DNA from: Bdellovibrionales bacterium
GTDB lineage: Bacteria > Bdellovibrionota > UBA2428
DNA length: 25,029 nt
Direction: 5' to 3'
Assembly (NCBI GenBank): GCA_018266335.1
Contig: JAFEAR010000055.1
Span: 1 to 25,029 of the forward strand
Shown here: positions 574-21,730 of the stretch, in pieces
How positions within the stretch are numbered: position 1 is the stretch's first letter
Layout of the letters: each line of letters opens with the position of its first letter
Made by a program: the position numbers and the translations under genes
The notes under the pieces: model-generated
The model's database searches: none
What the model saw: only the letters and a program-made list of their open reading frames with translations
Told to the model about the DNA's origin: nothing

Positions 574-2433
574 TTGGCTAAAGCTTTACGCAGTGATTCG
601 TTGGACGATGTTTGTGAATTGATCACCCAGGTTACGGGGGTTCAGCTCGGTGAAAAAAACCGAGTTATGGTGGAATCTCGGCTTACCAAACGTCTCATTA
701 GCCTAGGGCTAAAAAGCGTCGCTGAGTACGTGGCTTATTTTAATGAGCATCAGGATGAAGAGTTAAAGTCGCTCATCTCCTTGATGACCACACACCACAC
801 CTATTTTTTTCGCGAATTTTCTCAGTTCGATTTTTTGCTGCAGACGGCGTTGCCCTCTGTGGTGGCCCGCTTGAAGGCCAGTGGTCAAAAGAAAATTCGA
901 GTTTGGTCGGCGGCCTGCAGCCGTGGTCAAGAAGTCTACTCGTTGGCCATGTTTTTGGATCAGCATCTGAGCACAATTGCTCCTGGATTTAGCTTTGAGA
1001 TTCATGGATCCGATATTGATCCTGAATCGGTTCACTATGCACAGAATGGTGTGTATCCTTGGCGTGAAGTTAAAGAAATTCCCCGTCAATATCTAGAACC
1101 TTATTGGTCGCGGGGAGTGGGCGATATTCGTGAGTTCGCGGCGGTAAAAAAGAGTTTACGTGAACATTGCTCGTTTGGAACTGGAAATCTAATTTCTCCG
1201 GGACAGACTAGTGCCGCGGCTAAATACGATATTATTTTTTGCCGGAACGTTTTTATCTATTTTTCTCCTGACCAGATTGCAAAGTCAACGCATACGTTGC
1301 TTTCGAGTTTGGAGTCTCACGGTTACTTGTTCGTGGGGTTGTCTGAATCGCTCAATCAGCTGCAGCTACCTACCTACCATGTGGGTCCCTCGGTCTACAT
1401 GAAGGAGAGGCCCTCCGCGAGTGCGGGTACTTCTGCCTCGGCGAGCAAGGGATTGGGCGCGACGCCCAGGATTGCGAGCAATCCCGTTCCTAATCCGCTG
1501 CGTGTGCTTTGCGTAGACGACTCCGGTACAGTTCTCAGTCTGCTTAAAAAAGTTCTTGCTCGTACCCACGGATTCGAAGTGGTCGGCGTTGCAAAAAACG
1601 GTTTGGAAGCCACGCAGTGGCTTAAGAGCAACACTGCGGATCTCCTGACGCTTGATATTCACATGCCTGAACAAGGTGGAGTGGAGTATTTGGAGCGTAA
1701 CTTCAAAGCGGGCTCACACCCGCCCGTGGTGGTGGTGAGTTCAGTGAGCCGCGAAGATAAAACGCTAGCTCAGAAATGTTTATCTTTGGGGGCTAGCGAC
1801 TACGTTGAGAAACCCGACCTTGCGAACCTTGATGTCAAAGGCGAGGAATTGCGGAACAAACTGCTGAGCGCTTGGAAGCTTCGGGCAACGGGGACCGCGA
1901 TCTCCATACCGGCCAAAAATATCGATAAGCAATTTTCACGTGATCTTGCGAAGCTTGATCCTAAGCACTCCGCTCTCATTGTGGTTGCTACGGCTTCGCG
2001 GCGAACGGATGTCGAAACGATTTGGGGGACCTTTGCATCTCAAAACCGACCACCAATGGTTTGGTTAGAGCCGCAGGCACGTGGTAGCGTGGGCGGACTA
2101 TTCAAGGCTCTGCAGGCCGATCATTTTTCGTGGGATCAGACCTATCAGCACGGGCCGCTTCATGGATCACTGGAGGAACATTTCTTAGTTGCCGCCGGAT
2201 CGTTGGGGACTCGTCATTGTTCCGTTCTGTTTTTGGACGATGGAACAAATTCCCTCGTGAAGGCTTGTCTGAAAAACGCCTCCAACATGAAGCGGGTGCA
2301 GGTGCTCGCAGATGATTCATGGCAGGCGGAACTAGGTACACAAGAATCGCCGGTGCATAAACTTATGCGTCTTCCGGTGACGAGCATGGCTTACCACGTT
2401 GAAGAGTTTCTCGGAGGATGGAAGAAATCATGA
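574..2433 (+). CDS. cheR: Chemotaxis fusion: CheR methyltransferase - receiver - degenerate CheB-like domain
   Basis: This 619-residue cytoplasmic protein methylates receptor glutamates using S-adenosylmethionine. Residues ~8-265 are CheR: FFRE near 78, the SAM-site segment VWSAACSRGQEVYSLAM, the acidic HGSDIDPE, and CRNVFIYF, all matching the family. A Ser/Ala/Pro linker leads to a receiver domain (309-430) with intact D315/D316, phosphoacceptor D361, S389/S390 and K413; its DLLTLDIHMPE and GASDYVEKP segments are of the CheB-receiver type. Residues ~467-615 align without gaps over about 30 residues to the esterase domain of the next gene. The catalytic Ser, His and Asp positions there are Thr473, Glu499 and Asn, and the GSSTGG turn is ATASRR, so esterase activity looks lost. 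The stop codon overlaps the next gene's ATG. CheR and receiver calls are secure; the CheB-like relic is my alignment by eye. Confidence 0.92.
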   Translation: MAKALRSDSLDDVCELITQVTGVQLGEKNRVMVESRLTKRLISLGLKSVAEYVAYFNEHQDEELKSLISLMTTHHTYFFREFSQFDFLLQTALPSVVARLKASGQKKIRVWSAACSRGQEVYSLAMFLDQHLSTIAPGFSFEIHGSDIDPESVHYAQNGVYPWREVKEIPRQYLEPYWSRGVGDIREFAAVKKSLREHCSFGTGNLISPGQTSAAAKYDIIFCRNVFIYFSPDQIAKSTHTLLSSLESHGYLFVGLSESLNQLQLPTYHVGPSVYMKERPSASAGTSASASKGLGATPRIASNPVPNPLRVLCVDDSGTVLSLLKKVLARTHGFEVVGVAKNGLEATQWLKSNTADLLTLDIHMPEQGGVEYLERNFKAGSHPPVVVVSSVSREDKTLAQKCLSLGASDYVEKPDLANLDVKGEELRNKLLSAWKLRATGTAISIPAKNIDKQFSRDLAKLDPKHSALIVVATASRRTDVETIWGTFASQNRPPMVWLEPQARGSVGGLFKALQADHFSWDQTYQHGPLHGSLEEHFLVAAGSLGTRHCSVLFLDDGTNSLVKACLKNASNMKRVQVLADDSWQAELGTQESPVHKLMRLPVTSMAYHVEEFLGGWKKS

Positions 2434-3887
2434 CCCATCGGCCCGCCGATTTTACCCAGCTCGCCACGGCGAAATACTGGATCGGCAAAGCCGGAGAGAG
2501 TGCTTATCTTAAAGCCTCCAATCATGTGGGCTTTGTGGCCCTGGTGGATGCCCGGGACCAACGTATGGGGGCTTTGCTGTGGTCAGTTGGGGAAAGTCCG
2601 GAGACCTTTACTGCCCGGTGCCGTGAGTTGGTAACTCAATTTCAGGCGGGGATGAAGCCCGGCTCGCCCATCGAAGCTAAGTTCGTAGCTTCGGAATCGG
2701 CGCTGGCTACCGTGGCTGGTCTGGTGAGCTATTTTCAGCAAAAACTGGGCGCAAAAATTTTAGCCAAAGAATGTTCTGGAGCGGAGTTTATTCTTCAGGC
2801 TCCCGAGTCTAAAGTGAAAGTCAGCTATGCTCCCGCGGCCAGGAAGTGTCGTGTCTTGATTGTGGATGACTCCAAAACCATTCGAGACCTACTCAAGGCG
2901 GTCCTTTCTTCGGACGCGAATATCGATGTCGTGGCTGAAGCATCCATGCCCAATGAAGTCGAAGGACTGATTCAGCAATATCGCCCCGATGTAATAACCC
3001 TCGACCTGCAGATGCCGCAGATGAACGGGGTGGAGTTGCTGCGTAAAATAATGCCCAAAATGCCCATTCCCACGGTGCTCGTTACTTCTATGAGCCTGAC
3101 GGAAGGGCGAATGGTGCTCGAAGCTCTGGAAGCCGGCGCCGTTGATTATATTCAGAAGCCTCGTTTTGAGGAACTGAAGATGATGGCTCCCATTATTGTA
3201 GAAAAAGTTTTAGCTGCATCGACAGCTAAATTGACTCGGTCTCAAGCAACGCCAACGACGCTCAAATCGCGACGCTTGCAGGCCCCTTTAAATTCGAACG
3301 ATAATTCAGTGATCTTGATTGGATCATCTACTGGAGGTCCGCAGGCCTTGCGGAGTCTGTTGGGCGCTTTGCCGGCCAGTATTCCTCCCATTGTTATTGT
3401 GCAACACATTCCCGCAGTTTTCTCGAAGGCCCTAGCGGATTCGCTTACACAGGCCTGCGCCTTTCCGGTGTTGGAGGCCAAAGATGGGGACGAAGTGAAG
3501 GCGGGTCAAGCGCTCATGGCCCCCGGTGGAATGCAGATGGAAATTCTACGCAGCTCGGCGGGCGTGCTGACGGTGAAGGTTTTTGATGGAGCGCCCGTGA
3601 ACCGTCACAAACCTTCGGTGGACGTCCTGTTTCAGAGTGGCGTAAAAGCGCTCGGGCGTAGGGCGGTGGGAGTTATTTTGACCGGTATGGGTGCAGATGG
3701 CGCTAAGGGTTTGCTGGCGTTGCGGCAGGCCGGCGCGCGCACCGTTGCCGAGCATGAGTCGAGCTGCATCGTTTACGGTATGCCACGGGAAGCAATAAAA
3801 ATTGGAGCGGCCGAAGACATCGCTCCCCTTGAAGATATTCCGCTGGTTCTTCAGCGATTGCTCGCCCGTTCGAAAAAAGCAGCCTAA
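2430..3887 (+). CDS. cheB: Chemotaxis fusion: degenerate CheD-like domain - receiver - CheB methylesterase
   Basis: This 485-residue protein is a receiver-controlled receptor methylesterase. Receiver residues 140-262 show VDDSKTIRDLL, phosphoacceptor D192 and K243. The CheB domain (~293-478) keeps the full triad: S300 in GSSTGG, H326 in QHIP and D423 in TGMGADG, with 26- and 97-residue spacing as in the family. CheB normally starts with its receiver, but here ~135 extra residues precede it. They follow CheD order: NHVGFVALVDARDQRMGALL, then IEAKFVASES, then QQKLGAKILAKECSG. The CheD catalytic Cys position appears to be F35 and the His position W51, so deamidase activity is not expected. I chose ATG 2430 (ATGA overlap with the upstream stop, GGAGG 12 nt and GGAAG 5 nt upstream) over ATG 2418, which sits directly on the SD. 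CheB is certain; the CheD relic is probable. Confidence 0.93.
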   Translation: MTHRPADFTQLATAKYWIGKAGESAYLKASNHVGFVALVDARDQRMGALLWSVGESPETFTARCRELVTQFQAGMKPGSPIEAKFVASESALATVAGLVSYFQQKLGAKILAKECSGAEFILQAPESKVKVSYAPAARKCRVLIVDDSKTIRDLLKAVLSSDANIDVVAEASMPNEVEGLIQQYRPDVITLDLQMPQMNGVELLRKIMPKMPIPTVLVTSMSLTEGRMVLEALEAGAVDYIQKPRFEELKMMAPIIVEKVLAASTAKLTRSQATPTTLKSRRLQAPLNSNDNSVILIGSSTGGPQALRSLLGALPASIPPIVIVQHIPAVFSKALADSLTQACAFPVLEAKDGDEVKAGQALMAPGGMQMEILRSSAGVLTVKVFDGAPVNRHKPSVDVLFQSGVKALGRRAVGVILTGMGADGAKGLLALRQAGARTVAEHESSCIVYGMPREAIKIGAAEDIAPLEDIPLVLQRLLARSKKAA

Positions 3888-3898
3888 AATACTTTTCC

Positions 3899-4846
3899 AT
3901 GCCGGGTGTGCGTTTTGCACCGTCACCGACGGGTGCTTTTCATGTGGGTAACTTTCGTACGGCGTGGATTTCCCATGCGTGGGCCCGCGCGCTCCAGGAA
4001 CCCTGGGTGGTGCGCTTTGAAGACATCGACACCCCGCGAGTTCTTCCTGGTGCCCAGGAACAGCAGCTCAGTGATATGCGCGAGCTCGGATTAGCACCCG
4101 ATCGAATCGAAGTGCAAAGCGCGCAGCGCGATCGGCATTGGCAGTATTTTCTTCGCGCCGTGCGCGAGGGCCAGGTGTATCCTTGCTTTTGTTCGCGGAG
4201 CGAAGTTCAGACTGCCATTGGCGGGCTCGCTTCGGCTCCGCATGCCGAAGGGCCGGTCTACAGCGGGCACTGCCGCAAGTGGTTGGGCACGCCAGAGCCT
4301 TATCCACGGGTTGCGAGTCCCAGCATTGGTTGGCGTTTTCGTAGTCAGATGGCGGCGGACGGAGCTCAAGATTTTTTGGTGGCCCGTACTTGGCCCACGT
4401 TAGCGGCGGCCTGGCGGGCCGAGGCCGTGGACGAAGCGGAGGCGGATCGTTACGGTTTTGTACCTGCTTACCAGTGGGCCTGTGCGCTCGACGATTTTTT
4501 GGGTGATTTTCGCTTGCTGGTGCGAGCCTGGGATTTGGAGAACGTTTTGCGCACCCAGCGTGAGTTGCAGGCCCTCTTTGCCCGGTGGACCGCGCGCCCG
4601 GCCAGTCTCCAGGCCGTGTTTCACACGGCGCTCGTGACCCGCAATAACGGCCAGCGACTCGAAAAACGCACGCGCGGAGTGACGCGCGAAGATCTATCCG
4701 CGGCCGGTTTATGGCCCGCGGCTCTGCGGGCGCGCTTTGCGGAAAGCTTTAGGGTAAATTTAAGTGATTGGTCGACGAGCCCCGGGTGGGGCGAGTCGCG
4801 GCGCCAGTTGACGCTCGCGGAGCTGGGTGTGGAGGACATCGAATGA
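3899..4846 (+). CDS. gluQ: Glutamyl-Q tRNA(Asp) synthetase
   Basis: This 315-residue enzyme is a class I synthetase-like catalytic domain that attaches glutamate to queuosine at the wobble position of tRNA(Asp). The start VRFAPSPTGAFHVGN carries the HIGH-type motif (HVGN at 15-18). The length and the absence of an anticodon-binding domain separate it from GluRS. A zinc-site pattern specific to this family is present: C96 and C98 in YPCFCSR, then Y121 and C125 in YSGHC. WDLENVLRTQ and the RLEKR motif (253-257) correspond to the KMSKS region; the usual LSK is LEK here. It begins 11 nt after cheB and no clear SD is seen. Its stop overlaps the next ATG. Confidence in the family is high. Confidence 0.93.
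   Translation: MPGVRFAPSPTGAFHVGNFRTAWISHAWARALQEPWVVRFEDIDTPRVLPGAQEQQLSDMRELGLAPDRIEVQSAQRDRHWQYFLRAVREGQVYPCFCSRSEVQTAIGGLASAPHAEGPVYSGHCRKWLGTPEPYPRVASPSIGWRFRSQMAADGAQDFLVARTWPTLAAAWRAEAVDEAEADRYGFVPAYQWACALDDFLGDFRLLVRAWDLENVLRTQRELQALFARWTARPASLQAVFHTALVTRNNGQRLEKRTRGVTREDLSAAGLWPAALRARFAESFRVNLSDWSTSPGWGESRRQLTLAELGVEDIE
4831..4835 (+). promoter_or_regulatory. Shine-Dalgarno GGAGG for the thioesterase
   Basis: GGAGG lies 7 nt before ATG 4843, which overlaps the gluQ stop as ATGA. It supports 4843 over the in-frame upstream start at 4768, whose extra residues are only gluQ read out of frame. Confidence 0.8.
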
Positions 4847-18268: not shown

Positions 18269-20260
18269 TTAAAAGCCGTTGGGTGCCTTGGTCGGTGCGA
18301 CCCACAATTTGCTGTCGAAGAATTGGTTAAAGTCGGCGGCTAACTTCAGGTCCTTGCTACGATTGCGAATCGTCAGCATGTTTTCGTCGTTGCTGTCATT
18401 GCCGCTTTCCGACCAGTTTTGGGAACCAAGGGCGATGACTTCTGCTCGCTCGCTGCCGTCGCTAAGTTTGCGGGTCAGCGTGCCTACTTTGAGATGATTG
18501 AGTCCGTTCCATCCGCTCAGGCGAATATCGAGCTTGCCCACGGGAGTCCCTTGGCGGTCAACGCGATCCACGTACGGGTTGGGATCTTGAAGTTTGACCT
18601 GCGTTTTGGGATTGATCCAGGCGTTGACGCCCACGCCGGTGGTGTTATCCAAAACGATTTGAACGGAGGCGCCTTTGGCCAGAGCATACTGAATGGCGCG
18701 GACGTATTCGAGACCTGTGCTTCCGTACATGGCAATGCGAATTTTGTCGCCGGCGCGGGCCGAGAGCAACATGGGCAGAATCGCGCGGTGCTCGGCATCG
18801 TCGGTGGGCGAAAAATGCACCCGTAGCTCGGTGCCGTCATCGAAAGTAAAATAACGTTTCGTATTGGGGCGCTTGTCGTTGTGGAATCGACCAACAAGAA
18901 TCTCAGCGCCGCCCTGGCGGTTTACCATGAGGCCCTTGGAATCCTTGTAAACGTGCCCTGGTTCGAAGCCGTACATTTCCTCGAACTCTTTTTGGTACGC
19001 GCTCGCGATGGCGTCGTTACGAATATAGAGCGACATGTTGGCATTTTCTTCATCGCCCATGCAGGTCTGTGAAACGTTAGCGGTTCCCGTCCAAACGCTG
19101 TGCTTGCCATCGGTATTTTCCATTACAAAGAATTTATTGTGCATGATGCCATCGTCTGGCCACTCCAACCGTCCTTTGGAGTCCTCGTCGCGCGTGATGC
19201 CCTCGTTCAGCGCCAGCATAAGTTGCGTGTTGCCACCGTACTGGTAAGCCATGCGTACTGCGGCCCCAGCAGGAACTTTTCGGCTGGGATTAGCGAACCA
19301 CTTAGCATCCACATCCGCTCCGGAAACCACTTTGCCATTAACTTGAATTGTGAGTTGATGCGAATTCTGCTGCATGAGCGAGTCCATCCAAGAGGGCCGA
19401 CCAAAGATCCAGTACTCTCTTTCTTCGACGCTCGGAGGAGCGATGTAGGAGAAGATAAGGGGGTGAGCGAGCGGAGTGACTTCGGCTGTTCCATCGGCAA
19501 CCCGAACATCGTAGGCCCGCAGAAAGGAGTTAGCGTCCGGCTCCATTTCTACGTCCACCACGGCTCGTACGTTGGAGCCTTGCTTCTTTTGCGCCATGAG
19601 TGCATCGAAGACGGGCTTAAGGCTGCCTGCGATGTCATCGATGCCGTAGAGCGCAGCTGAAACGCCGTGAGAGCCATCCTTCATGATCCGTTCGGCTAAC
19701 GCTGGCGCCACCGTTCGAGGAGTAGTTTGTTGATCGGGCAACTTGTTATTGAAACGTTGGCTGAAAAAAGTATCAACATCGAGCGTTGCCCCAGCGGCAA
19801 CGGGCTGCCCCAAGCCGGGCTCGGTTTCCTGCCGCCAGGCCGCAGAGGGCGGGAGCAGGGGCGTTGTTTCCAGACAGCCCCAATCTTCCACGTCGCACAT
19901 TAAGAATTGAGTGGAGGCGTTGAGAATGCGTCCAAAATTCTTCGTGTAAAAGTTGTTCGTTGGGGGCACGCCCAGAAAGGCAAGATAAGTTGCCACGCGT
20001 TCGGTCATCAGATCACGGTTCGGACCGGTGAGGCCGGCTCGGTCAACCGCTGTCTGTACTTTGGCCTTGAAGGTGTCGGGGCTTAGGAGCTGCGGCCAGG
20101 AGGGGCTCTGTGGGTTGCTCGCCGGATAGCGTAGGGTCGAAGCGTAGAGGTTATGGGAGCTTTTGCTTGCGACTAGTGTAGAGGAGCAGCGCAGGGCCAG
20201 TGCGCAGAGGGCCACAATGAGAATAATCGGACGACGGGTAGGGCGAACCTGTTTAAGCAT
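18269..20260 (-). CDS. Exported phospholipase D superfamily protein with altered HKD motifs
   Basis: This 663-residue protein has a basic N-terminus and hydrophobic segment (IILIVALCALAL) followed by RCSS, so it is exported; the residue before Cys is Arg, so a lipobox is doubtful. It has two PLD-like halves. HKD1 is IMHNKFFVME with H374/K376 and Glu381 in place of Asp, followed by TGTANVSQ. HKD2 is NHLKVGTLT with H589/K591 but Thr596 at the Asp position, followed by LGSQNWSESG. The catalytic His and Lys of both sites and the GSxN-type motifs remain, so phosphodiester transfer is still plausible. The 190-residue N-terminal extension is unassigned. Substrate could be phospholipid or nucleic acid. 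It is divergent from a second PLD-like gene across a 108-bp gap with an inverted repeat. Confidence 0.87.
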   Translation of the reverse strand: MLKQVRPTRRPIILIVALCALALRCSSTLVASKSSHNLYASTLRYPASNPQSPSWPQLLSPDTFKAKVQTAVDRAGLTGPNRDLMTERVATYLAFLGVPPTNNFYTKNFGRILNASTQFLMCDVEDWGCLETTPLLPPSAAWRQETEPGLGQPVAAGATLDVDTFFSQRFNNKLPDQQTTPRTVAPALAERIMKDGSHGVSAALYGIDDIAGSLKPVFDALMAQKKQGSNVRAVVDVEMEPDANSFLRAYDVRVADGTAEVTPLAHPLIFSYIAPPSVEEREYWIFGRPSWMDSLMQQNSHQLTIQVNGKVVSGADVDAKWFANPSRKVPAGAAVRMAYQYGGNTQLMLALNEGITRDEDSKGRLEWPDDGIMHNKFFVMENTDGKHSVWTGTANVSQTCMGDEENANMSLYIRNDAIASAYQKEFEEMYGFEPGHVYKDSKGLMVNRQGGAEILVGRFHNDKRPNTKRYFTFDDGTELRVHFSPTDDAEHRAILPMLLSARAGDKIRIAMYGSTGLEYVRAIQYALAKGASVQIVLDNTTGVGVNAWINPKTQVKLQDPNPYVDRVDRQGTPVGKLDIRLSGWNGLNHLKVGTLTRKLSDGSERAEVIALGSQNWSESGNDSNDENMLTIRNRSKDLKLAADFNQFFDSKLWVAPTKAPNGF

Positions 20261-20267
20261 GTACCGA

Positions 20268-20333
20268 GTGTATCGGAAATTGATGTCAAATACTTGATAG
20301 GCATTAAGCCGGGTGCAGTTAGGACCGATACAC
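20268..20333. repeat. Perfect 9-bp inverted repeat between divergent phospholipase D genes
   Basis: GTGTATCGG at 20268-20276 and CCGATACAC at 20325-20333 are exact reverse complements separated by 48 nt. Each arm reads CCGATACAC towards its own gene. The left copy lies 7 nt before the start of the leftward PLD gene, the right copy 35 nt before the start of the rightward one. This looks like a paired operator or shared promoter element. Between them is a partly palindromic TTGATGTCAA (20280-20289). No protein partner can be named. Confidence 0.55.
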
Positions 20334-20368
20334 CCTTGTTGATAGATGAAGCTAAAAAAGGGGTGGTT

Positions 20369-21730
20369 ATGAATCGGTACGGAATTCTTTTTTCTCTTGG
20401 AATGTGTGCGATGAGTTCGGCGGTGCTAGCTAAAGGAAACAGCAACGCATTCAAATTCGATCTTATGCACACCGTGCCGGAGTGCCACCATCAAGGCAAG
20501 CCGACTACTTGGTGTTCTTCCGAGGACACTCAAAATGGAGCGGACCGTGCGGGCATGGAGAAGCGAGTGGTAGAAATTCTTGATGCCGCTCGGGATCCTT
20601 CTGATTCGCGTATTGTGATTGCTTACTTTAGCTTTTCCAACAAAGCGGCCTTCAATAAGCTTTGTGAACGCGGTAAGGCAGGCATTTCGATCGAGGGGTT
20701 CTTCGATAAATCTTATGGAGGCGACCCCACTAACTTGCCGGGCCAACTCGAAGCCAACTGCCAGTCGGGATCTAAGCACAACGTGCGCATTCACTATCTG
20801 GGCGACAAAAACACTTCACCCGGTAACTTTGTGTGGCGATTGCACCACAATAAATTTCTCATGGTTGATCCCGGGGGAGATGACCCCATCCGCTTGAATT
20901 TCTCCAGCGGCAACCTGTCCGCTTACGGTCTTAGTTTGCACTTCGACCACTGGGTCGTGATGCAAGCCGATCGCGACACGGCATTAGTGAAGCAACACAT
21001 GTGTGTAGTCAGTGCCCTACAAAAGGCCATCGATCCCGACGGATCCGGTCATGACCGGGAAGTGGACGACCCGAAAGTATATCGGCAAAGTCTTGATAGC
21101 TGTTTGAAAAAATATGGAATGCTCGGCTTGACTGACCCCGAGGGCGCCGAAAAACTTTTGGCTAAAGAAAAAATCGCCCCCCTGTTTGCGCCCAACCCGA
21201 ATAACGATGTTTTTAACACTCTCGTGGCCAATGTGGATCGCGTTAAAAAGGGCGGACACTTATCCATTGCGATCCAGCACTTTCTGTACCCCGAAATCGC
21301 TCAGGCCTTAACCCGCGCAGTGAAACGAGGCGTGAAAGTGCAGATGATTATGGATGACGATGTTGTCTTGGGAATGAGCGAAGTTCCCGGAGTTAAGCAA
21401 TTCTACTATAAATATCTCGTGCCCTCTAAGTCGGGCATTGATATTCGTTTCATGCGTACGAACGCCGATACACCTCCACCGCAAATGATGCACAACAAGT
21501 TCCTCGTTATGGAGGGTGTGGACGGCAACAAGAAGCGGGTGTTCTCGGGCGCAGGGCATTTCACCTCGTCGGGCATGCGTAACAACTACGAAAACTTCTA
21601 TTTGTCGCAAGTGGACGATTTGACTGCGAAGTACTTGGATCTCTTTGAGTATATGTGGGATCGGTCAGCTTCTGAATCCGAAGTGTTGGCGGCCGGTTCT
21701 CCCGTGCAGGCCCACGAGGGCGGAGAATAA
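20369..21730 (+). CDS. Exported phospholipase D superfamily protein
   Basis: The protein has 453 residues from ATG 20369, chosen because AAGGGG lies just upstream and the N-terminus is then a clean signal peptide (MNRYGILFSLGMCAMSSAVL, then AKG, cleaved after VLA). The upstream in-frame start at 20294 would hide the signal. There are two PLD halves: HKD1 LHHNKFLMVD is complete (H160, K162, D167) with SSGNLS after it; HKD2 MMHNKFLVME has H375/K377 and Glu382 for Asp, followed by FSGAGHFTSSG. Several Cys (C39, C49, C99, C131) could form disulfides in the periplasm or outside. Known relatives hydrolyse or transfer phosphodiesters in lipids, DNA or RNA. It pairs divergently with the other PLD-like gene and is followed 1 nt later by a secreted protein gene. 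Confidence 0.9.
   Translation: MNRYGILFSLGMCAMSSAVLAKGNSNAFKFDLMHTVPECHHQGKPTTWCSSEDTQNGADRAGMEKRVVEILDAARDPSDSRIVIAYFSFSNKAAFNKLCERGKAGISIEGFFDKSYGGDPTNLPGQLEANCQSGSKHNVRIHYLGDKNTSPGNFVWRLHHNKFLMVDPGGDDPIRLNFSSGNLSAYGLSLHFDHWVVMQADRDTALVKQHMCVVSALQKAIDPDGSGHDREVDDPKVYRQSLDSCLKKYGMLGLTDPEGAEKLLAKEKIAPLFAPNPNNDVFNTLVANVDRVKKGGHLSIAIQHFLYPEIAQALTRAVKRGVKVQMIMDDDVVLGMSEVPGVKQFYYKYLVPSKSGIDIRFMRTNADTPPPQMMHNKFLVMEGVDGNKKRVFSGAGHFTSSGMRNNYENFYLSQVDDLTAKYLDLFEYMWDRSASESEVLAAGSPVQAHEGGE

Follow-up and report, generated by a model that had tools for sequence, protein, structure and literature searches.

What is carried at the end of a CheR protein, and what may it do there? The textbook scheme of bacterial chemotaxis has CheR and CheB as two distinct enzymes, with a constitutive CheR. 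The locus treated here lies in a stretch of 25,029 nucleotides from a Bdellovibrionales bacterium (Bdellovibrionota; assembly GCA_018266335.1, contig JAFEAR010000055.1), called the window in what follows, where the gene at 574-2433 encodes a CheR methyltransferase followed by a receiver (REC) domain and a C-terminal tail. An earlier note, made from the letters alone, had proposed that it may be a CheR-CheB fusion with a dead eraser half, a reading supported here by a profile match to CheB, by seven intact relatives and by retention of the tail across relatives, where close pairs (the window is in none of them) show a low ratio of non-synonymous to synonymous substitution rates (dN/dS). The most likely ancestor of the protein is a CheR-REC-CheB fusion whose esterase was functional, and the identity of its tail as a dead CheB (psiCheB) is well supported. 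Moreover, a dead CheD (psiCheD), unmentioned in the earlier note, is attached to the CheB next door, which makes of the locus a two-gene system and not one odd protein.

Domain organisation of the CheR-REC-psiCheB protein

The gene and its parts, all on the forward strand, are as follows.

574-2433, +: gene CheR-REC-psiCheB, 619 amino acids, TTG start with AAGGAG ahead of it
601-1371, +: CheR_N and CheR methyltransferase, residues 10-266 (PF03705, E 2.4e-9; PF01739, E 1.7e-47; matches 1bc5/1af7; S-adenosylmethionine-binding and FCRNV motifs present)
1495-1869, +: REC domain of CheB type, residues 308-432; the likely site of phosphorylation is Asp361 (PF00072, E 1.2e-20; motif positions; tree)
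1936-2418, +: psiCheB tail, residues 455-615, CheB-derived, with Ser and His lost and a middle block of about 30 residues absent
2413-2417, +: GGAGG, Shine-Dalgarno-like sequence for the next gene, within the coding end of psiCheB

The coordinates and domains given earlier for this gene were right: Pfam places CheR_N at residues 10-55, CheR at 75-266 and REC at 311-415, and at E<=1 it finds no family past residue 440 and no PF01339 match in the open reading frame (ORF). The receiver, REC1, had been called intact and CheB-like, and both points agree with its motifs and its place in the receiver tree. The acidic pair (DD 315-316), the phosphoacceptor Asp361, Ser389 at the Ser/Thr position and Lys413 are all present; the CheR and REC motifs are the usual ones of these families, and their positions were read off the window protein. 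In the receiver tree REC1 forms one clade (25 rows, Shimodaira-Hasegawa-like approximate likelihood ratio test 99) and stands among most CheB receivers, with 8 of 9 CheY-like rows outside (support 90, unstarred, few columns). The same tree shows some oddities: a CheY-like row with a long branch is placed within the CheB set, 2 of 14 reference CheBs are placed beyond it, and L062, labelled a reference CheB, is identical to a row of REC2, the receiver of the next gene.

Relation of the tail to CheB

The resemblance between the tail and the neighbouring CheB, on which the earlier note relied, is at chance level when taken pairwise (BLASTP E 1.1); the relation to CheB itself is proved by a profile of the tail family. 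The tail alone, searched against 5.8 billion proteins by a word-based method, matched only the window itself, because it is too divergent for such a search. With the whole protein, at least 1200 matches at E<=1e-20 were obtained among 7998 scored candidates, further candidates being unscored. The 120 matches listed (window included) fall into two length classes: 41 of 582-664 amino acids, with the order CheR-REC-tail and a tail that can be aligned over all of them, and 79 of 772-959 amino acids, nearly all of them CheR-REC-REC-CheB proteins. Addition of loci from related genomes gave a set of 81 tails including the window (80 clusters at 95% identity).

Comparison of the 81 tails with 76 CheB domains by HHalign gave a probability of 92-94%, against at most 13.7% for the tail versus REC, CheR, CheD or psiCheD and at most 3% for 100 column shuffles; a narrow CheB set reached only 37%, and broader sets gave higher values. 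The aligned region starts at the first strand and reaches the GMG loop, with a single deletion of about 30 CheB columns, fewer than the 40 or so residues first estimated to be absent from the middle. Tested apart against CheB, the first half of the tail gave 95.6% and the second half 3.2%. Furthermore, the hidden Markov model of the tail scored above 8 bits on 126 of 175 CheB domains (group medians 4.5-18.5 bits), among them all seven intact CheR-REC-CheB proteins (median 15.8). After shuffling of the 175 domains, scores were reported for 118, with a median of -3.25 and a maximum of 4.9. When the window was left out of the tail profile, residues 462-614 of its protein were still found at 26.5 bits, the best shuffled window tail reaching 6.6 bits with the same profile (1000 shuffles, 757 reported). 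Descent of the tail from CheB is highly probable.

Loss of the catalytic Ser and His

The codons of the window at the former active site, that for the Asp as a candidate, are listed here.

1990-1992, +: Thr473, at the position of the CheB catalytic Ser (profile alignment)
2068-2073, +: Glu499-Pro500, with Pro500 at the position of the CheB catalytic His (profile alignment)
2248-2250, +: Asn559, candidate for the position of the CheB catalytic Asp (earlier pairwise alignment; the profile alignment ends before it)

The column of the catalytic Ser holds Ser in 76/76 CheB domains, and in the 81 tails Gly (30), Ser (26) or others; that of the His is likewise invariant in CheB (76/76), with Glu in 48, Asp in 13 and His in 3 tails. 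Ser and His occur jointly in these columns in 0/81 tails. Placement of the Ser at Thr473 is the same by profile. That of the His shifts from Glu499, as first aligned, to Pro500, and the stretch from residue 467 is not free of gaps, because the window carries a one-residue insertion. The numbers Ser300 and His326 used for the neighbour count from the ATG at 2430 (485 amino acids) and become Ser304 and His330 in the frame of 489. As regards the Asp, it is plausible from the alignment that Asn559 occupies its place in GMGxDG; the column with Asn559 holds Lys in 32, Ala in 14 and Asp in 3 of 81 tails, and the profile alignment ends at GMG. Judged by its residues, the tail is almost certainly devoid of esterase activity.

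The partner gene

The next gene overlaps the first one and has the following parts.

2430-3887, +: gene psiCheD-REC-CheB, 485 amino acids; its ATG overlaps the TGA of the 574-2433 gene (ATGA)
2430-2846, +: psiCheD, CheD fold without catalytic Cys and His
2844-3215, +: REC2, grouping in the tree with receivers of intact CheD-REC-CheB fusions
3300-3860, +: intact CheB methylesterase domain (PF01339, E 4.7e-60; GSSTGG, VQHIP, GMGADG)

The N-terminus of this protein does not match PF03975 in Pfam (E<=1), and searched alone against proteins it finds only the window, being too divergent for a word-based search; its fold is that of CheD. Catalytic Cys and His are each present in 28/28 CheD proteins, and the corresponding psiCheD columns hold Cys in 0/45 and His in 1/45; within two columns Cys is found in 3, His in 4 and both in 0/45. 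The CheB half is preserved: the triad motifs are kept in 22/22 REC-CheB proteins read whole, 21 of which have the N-terminal domain. By a looser pattern, and not counting the CheD-REC-psiCheB rows and the 34 reference CheBs, the Ser, His and Asp motifs are present in 124/124 CheB domains. In one CheB (P0107) Arg replaces Gly of the Ser motif. The motif count includes three intact CheD-REC-CheB proteins twice (L101/L123, L102/L120, L113/L121), and L125 repeats L093. A REC-CheB-type gene with 104-189 residues ahead of REC lies directly downstream in 40 of 43 loci of sufficient reach. Rows that were duplicate or cut (L009, L010, L011, L020, L026) were left out before counting, as were L003-L005 in the neighbour counts.

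A separate dead CheB was observed in proteins of CheD-REC-CheB type, where CheD looks intact and the CheB Ser and His motifs are lost in 17/17 rows (L093-L095, L097, L100, L105-L108, L111, L112, L114, L116-L119, L125), mostly with GGNAGS for GASTGG and with GFGxDG kept. In each of the three such genomes searched (G135, G148, G155) there is another CheB that Pfam matches strongly.

Relatives and order of events

Of 368 genomes in the phylum to which genome G002 belongs, 131 contain a match to the whole protein at E<=1e-60, the tail not being present in every match. Seven relatives in genomes covered by this search (L133, L135, L136, L137, L138, L142, L144) are CheR-REC-CheB proteins with Ser, His and Asp in place (7/7), whose CheB occupies the place of the window tail; L136-L138 have an additional N-terminal stretch, with a REC there in L137. 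The count is seven and not eight, since L040 is a full fusion whose second REC fell below the cut. In a quick tree of CheR plus REC1 (87 rows, labelled by length and profile hits, with L143 left out, only 9 of the 79 long proteins entered and an outgroup not on one side of a branch), six of the seven stand outside a starred clade (95) with 75 rows, to which all psi forms belong, and the seventh, L135, groups with single CheRs. This placement suggests that a working CheR-REC-CheB came first, an order that is provisional because the rooting is weak and several branches are long.

The CheR-REC-REC-CheB forms appear in three places inside the 75-row clade as drawn. As far as sequences go, they would fit, provisionally, a loss of the tail and of the partner N-terminus followed by fusion of the remainder. 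In five full fusions (L040-L044) the stretch between the receivers could hold both domains; by profile, the tail is detected in L040 and L041 only. In L130 a short tail is kept beside a REC-CheB without N-terminal domain. Three CheR-REC proteins of about 445 amino acids (L120, L121, L124) have no tail; a second CheR and an intact CheD-REC-CheB are found close by L120 and L121.

The receptor and its C-terminal peptide

Upstream of the CheR-REC gene, the window begins within a chemoreceptor.

3-518, +: chemoreceptor (methyl-accepting chemotaxis protein, MCP), C-terminal part, truncated by the window start (PF00015, E 7e-10)
495-515, +: receptor C-terminal peptide DPRFEDL, candidate docking tail, with a similar end in 26/50 loci including the window

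An end like DPRFEDV is present on the upstream protein in 26 of 50 CheR-REC loci, 23 by a pattern composed after viewing the sequences and three (L001, L048, L050) by eye; in the other loci the upstream position holds a CheW-sized gene (20), another ORF (1) or none (3). Among the MCPs found, one of five in G352 and one of two in G042 have such an end, each adjoining the CheR-REC gene. According to the accessible text of two papers, receptors of E. coli type bear a C-terminal pentapeptide that binds CheR and CheB (PMC7390727, PMC8609364). The peptide of the window resembles this NWETF docking site, as far as it is described there, in being a short acidic peptide at the receptor C-terminus after a variable linker; unlike it, DPRFEDL has one aromatic residue in place of aromatics at positions 2 and 5 of the terminal pentapeptide. 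By this analogy the DPRFEDL-type peptide may play a similar role. Receptors L148, L158, L162, L175 and L177 of genome G148 end in VGTTDGF, VGNTDGF or IGNRDGF, possibly a docking tail as well.

Constraint and rival explanations

Substitution rates were estimated in nine close pairs, none including the window. The tail changes with dN 0.10-0.63 and CheR with dN 0.04-0.24; for the tail, the seven computable pairs give dN/dS values of 0.04-0.21, ratios that are only rough because every estimated dS exceeds 1. PsiCheD is faster (dN 0.19-0.92; dN/dS 0.07-0.39 in four of nine pairs).

The roughness of these ratios is one of several points that weigh against the reading preferred here, of a CheB-derived, inactive tail kept as a regulatory or docking part. 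The C-terminal half has no CheB match by itself; Foldseek is unspecific for the tail, with GmhA-type isomerases on top, and the structural match to CheB ties with unrelated Rossmann folds. Two tails (L039, L045) have Ser and His near, not in, the catalytic columns when a looser residue window is applied. The partner gene is not adjacent in L012, L037 and L058, and the tail is absent from L120, L121, L124 and the CheR-REC-REC-CheB forms, which indicates that it is dispensable in some lineages. Finally, the window tail deviates at near-invariant positions, with Leu468 for Arg, Gln501 and Asp555 for Gly and Asp580 for Glu, so that this copy may be drifting.

Some of these points would agree with a functionless, decaying remnant, kept for the ribosome site of the next gene: in the window the GGAGG lies within the coding end of the tail, some lineages lack the tail, and the window copy is off at conserved positions. 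Such a remnant is nevertheless unlikely, since some 160 residues stay in frame across 80 relatives and show their own set of conserved positions (the columns of Arg468, 74/81, Gly555, 73/81, and Ser604, 45/45), dN/dS is far under 1 in the computable close pairs, and a ribosome site takes about ten bases, not 160 codons. Conserved Gly, Glu and Pro-x-Thr-Ser positions of the tail, together with an acidic residue (Glu or Asp) in 61/81 tails where the His of CheB stood, could speak for a new catalytic or ligand-binding activity replacing the methylesterase; this is just as improbable as a remnant, for no known catalytic motif was recognised by eye, without a dedicated search, and the window lacks several of these residues. 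A different, PurE- or SIS-like origin of the tail, as a Rossmann-like domain similar to CheB by shared alpha/beta architecture only, is very unlikely, given a profile in register with CheB from first strand to GMG with one deletion, an alignment to 3sft that is the longest of the first 20 rows (141 versus 111-123) and the intact CheB found behind CheR-REC in seven relatives.

Possible function

Among the roles open to a CheB-derived, inactive tail, a regulatory or docking one is on balance preferred, from its sequence, to a new enzymatic role or none; it would fit a receiver that is intact and a receptor tail that recurs. REC-psiCheB is rather probably a CheB-derived module for regulation or docking that responds to phosphorylation. 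In CheB, according to PMC8609364, the receiver shields the active face until it is phosphorylated, so that a receiver and a CheB domain are already a switch. Keeping both after the loss of catalysis could lend CheR a phosphorylation-responsive part: esterase activity would be carried by psiCheD-REC-CheB, and REC-psiCheB would be retained as the switch. CheA would phosphorylate Asp361, the REC/psiCheB interface would open or close, and the change may alter the access of CheR to the receptor, or docking on the receptor array or on the CheB partner. Possible targets of the switch are CheR, the receptor tail or the partner psiCheD.

A more doubtful extension is that psiCheB and psiCheD are a matched pair tying writer and eraser on one receptor tail, so that one kinase output would set both oppositely within a single complex. 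Both domains are missing in the one-chain CheR-REC-REC-CheB proteins, as though a covalent bond had taken the place of contact between two proteins. Speaking against part of it, both domains could still be accommodated in the one-chain fusions L040-L044, and in L130 a short tail persists with a REC-CheB that lacks the N-terminal domain.

Comparison with known systems

The CheR part is ordinary, with CheR_N and CheR (1af7, 1bc5) and the usual motifs. The tail shares with CheB methylesterases (PF01339) the REC in front, a profile match over the first half of the domain and the existence of intact versions behind CheR-REC; it differs in having no Pfam match, in the loss of Ser and His and of a middle block of about 30 residues, and in its place behind CheR. 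Similarly, psiCheD has the fold of the CheD deamidase (PF03975; 2f9z chain C), differing from it in the loss of Cys and His and in the lack of a Pfam match; the phylum also has CheD-REC-CheB fusions that are intact, with receivers that nest with REC2.

Other CheRs bear extra modules, such as the tetratricopeptide repeats (TPRs) of CheR-TPR fusions, proposed in the accessible text of PMC3447774 to limit methylation; the module here is a receiver with a dead CheB, not TPRs. CheB-CheR hybrids, in Rhodospirillum centenum (PMC2890560) and as a cheBR fusion in a table (PMC8396549), likewise have both enzymes on one chain; the accessible parts of these sources mention no dead partner. A literature search, thin on subscription journals and with sources accessible in part, found CheB-CheR hybrids and CheR fusions and none with a dead CheB or CheD.

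Other genes of the window

At 3899-4846, adjoining the chemotaxis genes, lies a gene of glutamyl-tRNA synthetase-type look (FAPSPTG, by eye), and at 18269-21730 two adjoining genes on opposite strands have a phospholipase D-type look (HNKF motifs, by eye).

Significance

CheR and CheB set receptor methylation, which is the memory of bacterial chemotaxis, and species of one phylum keep a CheR-receiver-dead CheB protein beside a CheB with a dead CheD. The intact CheR-REC-CheB relatives offer a before-and-after view of an enzyme turning non-catalytic, and the pair of CheR-REC-psiCheB and psiCheD-REC-CheB is amenable to tests with purified proteins. If the receiver controls CheR, the kinase would feed back directly on methylation itself.
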